Below, piece by piece: positions 17,560 through 62,031 of a stretch of 64,000 nucleotides of DNA. The notes below the pieces were generated by a model that worked only from the letters and a program-made list of their open reading frames with translations, did no database searches and was not told the origin of the DNA. Each line of letters opens with the position of its first letter. Positions within the stretch are counted from its first letter, which is position 1. Made by a program: the position numbers and the translations under genes. This stretch comes from Halorubrum sp. 48-1-W (GTDB taxonomy: Archaea; Halobacteriota; Halobacteria; Halobacteriales; Haloferacaceae), in the NCBI RefSeq assembly GCF_003287355.1, contig NZ_QMIM01000021.1:1-64000 (forward strand), written 5' to 3'.

Positions 17560-17629
17560 CCGTCCCGTTCGGCTCCGTTGAGATCCTCAACGAGTGACAG
17601 GTACGGAATTCGTTCGCGGATGCTCACTA

Positions 17630-17998
17630 CAGGTGAAGGAACGAACGATTCTGCGGTGGCGTGCCGGTGAGCGCCCGGAGGGCGCGAACCGACCGCGAGG
17701 GAGTCGGTGGTCCGACGCGAAGCGGAGGACCACCGACGAGGCTGGGGAGGTGTGAGGTGCGGTGCTGTGCGGTGCGGGTGGGATTCAAAGGGGCAGTCGT
17801 GAGGACGAAGCACGGCGACGTAAGCACTGGAAGGAGCGAGCAGTGCGAGCGACTGAAGCGCACAACGAGCCGCGCGAGTCCTCGCGACTGGGGCTTTGGA
17901 GGTATTCACCTCGCCAGCAACGATCTCGTTCCTATCAAGTCGATCTCTCACGAAACAACGGTACTATTAGCATTCGGTATAGACTGACTGTTTCAGGC
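17630..17998 (-). repeat. Dispersed palindromic element, copy A (near full length)
   Basis: Read on the minus strand, the element runs from about 17998 (CCTGAAACAG) through GATCGTTGCTGGCG, CAAAGCCCCAG, a long stem (17878-17890 with 17794-17806, one G-T mismatch), CTGCCCCTTTG and a pyrimidine-rich block. It then has hairpins 17704-17736 (10 bp stem) and 17671-17685 (GCGCCC-GGA-GGGCGC on plus) and ends in TTCACCTG at 17630. The terminal 55 bp equal the inverted complement of 1-55. It fills the 17560-18054 gap; no credible gene lies in it. Confidence 0.9.
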
Positions 17999-18054
17999 GA
18001 TTACACGCCTAATTAATAGAATTTCAACGAAGCCTCCCGTCCCGTGTTCAGCCT

Positions 18055-43029: not shown

Positions 43030-43144
43030 ACTGTCATGTGGCGGCGAACGAACAAAAAGCCCGTATCGATGGCGGGTGTGGATCCCCGTCCCCAGGGCTC
43101 GGTTGACGTCGATTCCGTTGAAATCTGATTCTTCAGATATATTC

Positions 43145-43327
43145 TCACCTGAAACAGCCGGTCGATGAGAGCTACTAATGGTACGGTTGTTTCGATCGAG
43201 ATCGGCTTGATAGGAACGAGATCGTTGCTGGCGAGGTGAACACCTCCAAAGCCCCAGTCGCGAGGACTCGCGCGGCTCGTTGTGGTTCTCGTCGCTCACT
43301 GCGTTCGCTCCTGCGGTCCTTACGCCG
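43145..43327 (+). repeat. Dispersed palindromic element, truncated copy D
   Basis: The plus strand starts at CACCTGAAACAG (about 43147) and matches the left half of copy A closely, including ATCGTTGCTGGCGAGGTGAA and CAAAGCCCCAGTCGCGAGG. It stops after CCTTACG near 43325, so the right stem arm and hairpins are lost. It abuts the 3' end of the serine hydrolase gene (stop at 43345) and occupies most of the 43030-43344 gap. Confidence 0.85.
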
Positions 43328-58840: not shown

Positions 58841-59088
58841 GATCGTTGCTGGCGCGGTGAACGTCCTCAAAGCCCCAGCCTCACGGCTGCCCCTTTGAGT
58901 CCCGTCCCGCACAGCCCCGCAACCGCACCTCACGCCTCCCCAGCCTCGCTGCTCACTTCGTTCACAGCGTCCCTCGCGGGCTGCTCGCGCCCCGGTGGGG
59001 CGCTCGCAGGCGCAGGGCGAGAGCGACGCTCTCGCTTGAAGCCGGCGCGAAGCGCCGGCGACGCCACCGCAACTCGGTCATTGGTTCT
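58841..59088 (+). repeat. Dispersed palindromic element, copy B (internally deleted)
   Basis: It begins at GATCGTTGCTGGCGCGGTGAA. The central loop is missing: CAAAGCCCCAGCC-TCAC-GGCTGCCCCTTTG keeps the clamp (58868-58872 with 58893-58897) and a 5 bp inner stem (58876-58880/58885-58889). A conserved pyrimidine-rich block follows, then three triloop hairpins: 58987-59003 (loop GGT), 59017-59035 (loop GAC) and 59041-59059 (loop GAA). It ends in GCCACCGC and a diverged tail, filling the 58779-59167 gap. Confidence 0.88.
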
Positions 59089-61636: not shown

Positions 61637-62031
61637 GATCGTTGCTGGCGCGGTAAAGGCGACTTCGGAGAACACCGCCAAAGCCCCAGCCGCTCGGTAC
61701 TACAGAGCAGCGAGTACGACTTCGGAGAACACCGCCAAAGCCCCAGCCGCGAGGCGGGCGCACGCTCGTTGTGCTCCTCAGTCGCTCACTCCGTTCGCTC
61801 CCTGCGGTGCTTACGTCGCCTGCGCCCGCCTCGCGCCTGCCCCTTTGAGTCCCACCCCGCACAGCCCCGCACCGCACCTCACACCTCCCCAGCCTCGCGA
61901 CTCGCTTCGCTCGCCGCGTCCAGCGAGGGACCGAAGGTCCCTCTGGCAGCCGGCGCGAAGCGCCGGCGACCTCGCGGGCTCCTCGCGCCCTATCGGGCGC
62001 TCGGAGGCGCGCCACCGCGATCGCTCGTTCT
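61637..62031 (+). repeat. Dispersed palindromic element, copy C (most complete)
   Basis: GATCGTTGCTGGCGCGGT is followed by a 32 bp block twice (61661-61692, 61718-61749), each with CCAAAGCCCCAGCCG. A 15 bp perfect stem (61748-61762 with 61821-61835) sits inside the CAAAG/CTTTG clamp (61736-61740/61843-61847). Next come the pyrimidine-rich block and hairpins 61925-61943 (loop GAA), 61949-61967 (loop GAA) and 61985-62000 (loop TATC). It ends GCCACCGCGATCGCTCGTTC. No real gene: frames through it are interrupted and differ between copies. Confidence 0.92.

Follow-up and report, generated by a model that had tools for sequence, protein, structure and literature searches.

The repeat and its copies in the window

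The window, i.e., the 64,000-nucleotide stretch of contig NZ_QMIM01000021.1 of Halorubrum sp. 48-1-W analysed here, contains copies of a dispersed, non-coding and previously undescribed repeat, of which the hairpins noticed in a preliminary description of this DNA are parts; the open papers on Halorubrum yielded no description of the element. In what follows "folded strand" designates the minus strand of copies B and C, i.e., their reverse complement, and the plus strand of copy A. Copy B, recognized by its sequence, its motif and its alignment to about 50 copies of the genome, occupies positions 58841–59070 (folded strand minus). Copy C (61637–62018, minus) is a full form comprising two tandem units, a long hairpin, the motif, the hairpin P1, an inserted double-hairpin (DH) module and the hairpin P2, and copy A (17653–17925, folded strand plus) is carried by a MITE whose inverted repeats occupy 17571–17586 and 18019–18034. 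The P2-end fragment of another copy is found at the contig edge (1–33, minus) and a partial copy (43090–43310, minus) consists of the left part of the carrier MITE and of the first half of the element.

Oriented like copy C, a full form begins with one or more tandem units ending with CCAAAGCCCCAG, followed by the long hairpin CAAAG..CCTCGCGACTGCCCCTTTG and by a C-rich linker, after which come the invariant motif, P1, CTCCCTCGCG, P2 and finally GCGCCACCGC, where conservation ends abruptly. On the folded strand P2 has the sequence CTCC-GA-GCGCCC-loop-GGGCGC-GA-GGAG, and in 93/113 copies a GA lies on either side of its inner stem. P1 and the upper part of the long hairpin have a ladder structure, tandem GA mismatches separating blocks of two Watson-Crick pairs and a GNA triloop forming the cap, as in GC-GA-AC-(GAA)-GT-GA-GC. 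Tandem units (~50–60 bp) upstream of the long hairpin were seen at the loci L017, L015 and L023; in other species a TATA-like box is present in each unit.

In copy B the long hairpin is reduced to ~30 nt with CAAAG..CTTTG arms (58868–58897, minus), a collapsed state recognized from the sequence and from the full-length versions in other copies. It is followed by the invariant motif (58929–58948, minus), CTCACGCCTCCCCAGCCTCG on the plus and CGAGGCTGGGGAGGCGTGAG on the folded strand, found in 49–51 copies of the genome and genus-wide. P1 (58947–58969, minus) reads GCTGT-GA-AC-(GAA)-GT-GA-GCAGC, a tandem-GA ladder with a GAA triloop as its cap, an assignment based on its sequence and on the ladder statistics given below, and P2 (58981–59009, minus) reads CTGC-GA-GCGCCCC-(ACC)-GGGGCGC-GA-GCAG, as indicated by the sequence, the GA/GA flanks and covariation. 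At its 3′ end (59063–59070, minus) the element has GCCACCGC on the plus strand, conservation ending sharply at ACCGC. The P2 of copy C (61979–62006, minus), CTCC-GA-GCGCCC-GATA-GGGCGC-GA-GGAG, is likewise identified by its sequence and GA flanks.

The linker that joins the motif to the long hairpin on the folded strand (e.g., 61849–61877 of the window) contains 59% G and little A, and is G-rich in every case although its length varies; formation of a G-quadruplex is possible. A coding gene on this strand was considered and rejected, the linker lengths being evenly distributed over the three frames and stops occurring at all positions, with early stops being common.

Direct reading confirmed the coordinates, stems and loops that the preliminary description had given for the hairpins of all three copies, namely GCGCCCC-GGT-GGGGCGC (58987–59003), GCGAGAGC-GAC-GCTCTCGC (59017–59035) and GCCGGCGC-GAA-GCGCCGGC (59041–59059) in copy B, GAGGGACC-GAA-GGTCCCTC (61925–61943), GCCGGCGC-GAA-GCGCCGGC (61949–61967) and GCGCCC-TATC-GGGCGC (61985–62000) in copy C, and GCGCCC-TCC-GGGCGC on the reverse strand of copy A. 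Nevertheless, whereas the hairpin 58987–59003 lies within P2 of copy B and is a structure of the element proper, the triloop pairs at 59017–59059 (copy B) and 61925–61967 (copy C) belong to a separate mobile insert; the specific loops that had been quoted are largely those of a different, inserted mini-element.

The double-hairpin modules

The DH insert of copy B (59014–59062, plus strand), 49 nt long and having the structure AGG-stem(GAC)-TTGAA-stem(GAA)-GAC, contains the hairpins 59017–59035 and 59041–59059. It is absent from the orthologous locus of a sister species (L170 of G011), also located 3′ of pdxS, where the uninterrupted element reads GGTGGC|GCGCCTGCG, and comparison of the two loci reveals no target duplication. 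The module of copy C (61922–61970, plus), recognized by its sequence and by the existence of related plasmid modules, is inserted between GTCC and CTCGCG. The members of the DH family have two hairpins, a linker (e.g., TGGCA, GCCA or TTGAA) and a 3′ GAC. These modules of 49–55 nt, endowed with similar triloops, insert into the element without duplicating the target; they are found at several element sites as well as in IS605-type genes, and related modules occur on plasmids of Natrinema, Haloterrigena and Halobacterium. One module splits a TnpB gene of the source genome (L245, G000:C7, ~1145–1200), separating DLGV from NSLAVAS; it is out of frame and there is again no target duplication. Another is embedded in the right-hand, palindromic end of an IS605-type element (L238).

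In Haloquadratum, SMR-A repeats enter the palindromes of IS605-type elements and leave no duplication (PMC3119063). The DH modules resemble them in being short, in lacking target duplications and in residing often in, or next to, the palindromes of other elements, IS605-type ends being among the targets common to both. On the other hand, SMR-A repeats are ~110 bp long and have long, prominent inverted terminal repeats, unlike the two separate hairpins and the 3′ GAC of the 49–55-nt modules.

Distribution of the element

A search of the source genome with copy C returned at least 72 matching pieces, 40 of 174 candidates having been scored. The invariant 20-mer CTCAYRCCTCCCCAGCCTCG marks ~50 copies, and the motif is present in 49–51 copies vs 1–4 occurrences of a reversed control pattern, the copy number being a lower bound since the assembly breaks at copies of the element. 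Contigs C5, C9, C12, C19, C29, C30, C32 and C40 of this genome (G000) are among the many that start or end in a copy.

Copies of the family are numerous and dispersed, and its presence varies from genus to genus in a patchy manner. The motif occurs in all Halorubrum genomes searched, at 13–181 copies per genome, and outside of Halorubrum in one genus with 31 copies and in a second, probably Halorussus, with 0–106 copies depending on the species, whereas no copies were found in most other genera searched. The copies of the second genus retain GCGAGGGA, the motif and the GA ladders. Such patchiness speaks for a mobile element rather than for a housekeeping RNA. In the second genus some elements (loci L266, L268 and L269 of G082) are arranged head to head in pairs, a long inverted repeat surrounding GCAGTAGCTAGC.

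An exact-motif search of IMG/VR gave no match and neither did the phage records match the element, so that a viral origin was rejected on these grounds. No bias of orientation with respect to replication is visible in G019 where, among the matches listed and counted by hand, the plus copies are distributed 40/20 and the minus copies 40/28 between two parts of the chromosome.

Selection acts on a single strand

The sequence of the element varies while its fold is kept, and this holds for one strand only. In 116 unselected copies, paired solely by position, the initial 12 positions of the long stem contain 46 G·T wobbles and 7 A·C oppositions on the folded strand. In an alignment deprived of the rows having clearly non-homologous arms, a selection that favors pairing, 98% of the pairs of the long stem are standard and 10/12 are changed on both sides. 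For P2, changes on both sides affect 8/10 pairs. The covariation scores, which none of 500 shuffles reached, are several-fold above those of slid controls.

The GA ladders are just as asymmetric, 157 ladder hairpins being found on the folded strand and 6 on the other; for ladders with at least two rungs the figures are 61 (39 distinct sequences) vs 0, a background of 749 kb containing 3 when both its strands are counted, and in the second genus 9 ladders are on the folded strand and none on the other. As the copies are related, these copy counts overstate the number of independent events. The strand bias of wobbles and ladders indicates that it is a single strand that is folded and selected, and rules out a symmetric cruciform.

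Template switching can mimic covariation, and functionless palindromes could in principle be kept perfect by this process during replication. Two copies with different flanks do share a 257-bp tract at 98.8% identity, which points to sequence exchange between copies. However, this explanation fails to account for the strand bias of wobbles, GA/GA loops and GNA triloops, as well as for the invariant motif, and is considered very improbable.

Loop types: DNA or RNA?

The preliminary description had proposed a preference for triloops, in particular of the GNA type. A census of hairpins whose arms measure at least 7 bp, in which 126 kb of element zones were set against 816 kb of background drawn from the same loci, bears out both points: triloops close 133 of the 252 hairpins of the element zones (53%) vs 259 of 1307 in the background (20%), and GNA or its complement accounts for 67/133 of the former triloops (50%) and 18/259 of the latter (7%). 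What has to be revised is the strand, as the element's own hairpins favor GNA on the strand opposite to that originally read. On the folded strand the GGT loop of copy B is ACC and the TATC loop of copy C is GATA; P1 triloops are GNA in 62/92 cases and TNC in 2, a count in which not all events are independent because P1 types recur among copies, while those of P2 comprise 23 GNA, 9 TNC and 51 others.

RNA-type loops do not prevail in the other copies: GNRA is found in 0/38 tetraloops of the element zones vs 14/264 of the background (either strand, arms of at least 7 bp), and UUCG in none of these 38. Moreover, the GNNA tetraloops of P2 have a pyrimidine in the third position in 15 cases out of 17 (GNYA 15, GNRA 2), which is not the GNRA rule of RNA. 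Tetraloops of the d(cGNNAg) type are known to be stable in DNA. GAA triloops are described as ultra-stable in DNA (PMC11101458). Based on these loop types, i.e., the presence of GNA triloops and the lack of GNRA and UUCG loops, the folded strand is likelier to be DNA than RNA.

The alternative is that the folded strand corresponds to a structured non-coding RNA, a putative transcript starting from a TATA-like box near P2 and spread by carrier transposons. Tolerance of G·T and tandem GA pairs are features known also in RNA, which weighs against the ssDNA reading. Boxes of sequence TTTATAA occur in many copies at fixed places outside both ends, 7–14 nt outside the P2 end and ~36–43 nt before the long hairpin (50/131 and 42/135 copies), as would suit transcription, and the box near P2 would place the start approximately at P2. 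Furthermore, the G·T tolerance is strand-specific, and RNA parameters give the folded strand a higher calculated stability than its complement in 118/121 copies. On the other hand, the boxes are present in under half of the copies and none was seen beside the second-genus copies among the matches listed, Rfam gave no match at the gathering threshold, the presence of the element is patchy, and the GNRA/UUCG count of 0/38 and the 15 vs 2 excess of pyrimidine-third GNNA loops do not suit an RNA. On balance, an RNA is the less likely reading.

Carriers and mobility

Some copies of the source genome are located between the ends GGCTCYGTTGAAATCC of DDE-transposon MITEs (e.g., 17571–18034 of the window) and are bordered by approximate 8-bp duplications, with 7/8 matches in two copies. 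The transposon having these ends encodes DDE_Tnp_1, and a related MITE of 401 bp with GGCTCYGTTGAAATCC ends (L208, 1501–1901) has a perfect 8-bp duplication, AGAAATAT. These facts lend some credit to the premise that the element is ordinary MITE cargo, whose conservation would be only apparent, reflecting recent spread. Yet the MITE features concern a subset of copies and come with imperfect duplications, most copies have no GGCTCYGTTGAAATCC ends, the flanks differ in several other species, copies devoid of such ends are indeed seen in other species, and the structure is left unexplained; this possibility appears decidedly improbable. In several Halorubrum species the flanks of L063, L072, L095, L142 and L161 are other inverted ends, GCGGGAGTGAGT..ACTCACTCCCGC, which are a second kind of carrier. 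At the pdxS locus the element is present, absent or reduced to a remnant, and no clean empty site was found for the main element.

The preliminary description had also implied that the element depends on an HUH/Y1 transposase (TnpA, RAYT-like), in which case it would be an IS200/IS605-derived PATE moved by such an enzyme. The near-terminal palindromes, the lack of a transposase gene, the strand specificity and the IS605 genes that adjoin a few copies are compatible with this origin, and PATEs are abundant in Haloquadratum (PMC3119063). However, Y1_Tnp (PF01797) was not detected in two near-complete Halorubrum genomes with 119 (G016) and 128 copies (G019), nor in genomes of other genera with 106 (G082), 44 (G159) and 32 copies (G138), whereas G106 and G126 have Y1 genes and zero copies; no conserved IS605-like terminal oligonucleotide was recognised. 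Since its presence does not track copy number, Y1/TnpA was discarded as a requirement, and a Y1-moved PATE is deemed unlikely.

That the element acts as folded ssDNA, as had been suggested, is sustained insofar as a single strand is folded and bears GNA triloops, DNA being favored over RNA by the loop types. The hairpins would accordingly be members of a non-autonomous, non-coding and putatively mobile repeat family, whose folded strand carries the GA-flanked P2, the GA-ladder P1, the invariant G-rich motif with its linker and the long hairpin topped by GA ladders. This strand may become exposed as ssDNA upon copying or excision of the element, and the sheared G·A pairs and GNA triloops could give it a compact shape that a strand-specific enzyme or host factor recognises, some copies being carried in addition by ordinary DDE-transposon MITEs. 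A family of mobile repeats, one strand of which folds as ssDNA and is read by a strand-specific factor, is in our opinion the best explanation of the data, with about an even chance of being correct. That the element represents a new mobile class, working as folded ssDNA of one specific strand built from tandem sheared-GA ladders and GNA triloops and moved or replicated by a non-Y1 ssDNA-processing enzyme, is proposed more tentatively and may well prove wrong.

Sequence data seldom reveal selection that acts on the loops and non-canonical pairs of a single DNA strand; with up to ~180 copies per genome in many species, the element offers a natural experiment on the single-strand folds needed by a cell or by a mobile element, points to a strand-specific process in haloarchaea and lends itself to a clear ssDNA vs RNA test.

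Relationship to known elements

Within the haloarchaeal palindromic repeats the structural signature of the element is unusual and testable. The element most resembles the haloarchaeal PATEs, yet is unlike every described kind that was found. Like the PATEs of Haloquadratum walsbyi (PMC3119063), it is non-coding, high-copy, haloarchaeal and provided with near-terminal palindromes, and both are heterogeneous in sequence and targeted by smaller inserts; it differs in having a fold kept with compensatory changes, GA ladders and an invariant G-rich motif, and in lacking a link to Y1, occurring as it does in genomes without Y1 genes. With the bacterial REP/REPIN sequences and their RAYT it shares the nature of an interspersed palindromic repeat probably acting as folded ssDNA, but it has no RAYT/Y1 association, is much longer and has another architecture. 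Some copies, lying between DDE-transposon ends with approximate 8-bp duplications, recall MITEs, from which the element differs in that its core is independent of any single set of ends. Finally, in the attC sites of integrons structure prevails over sequence and one strand is folded; the element has both properties in common with them, a likeness that amounts to resemblance only.
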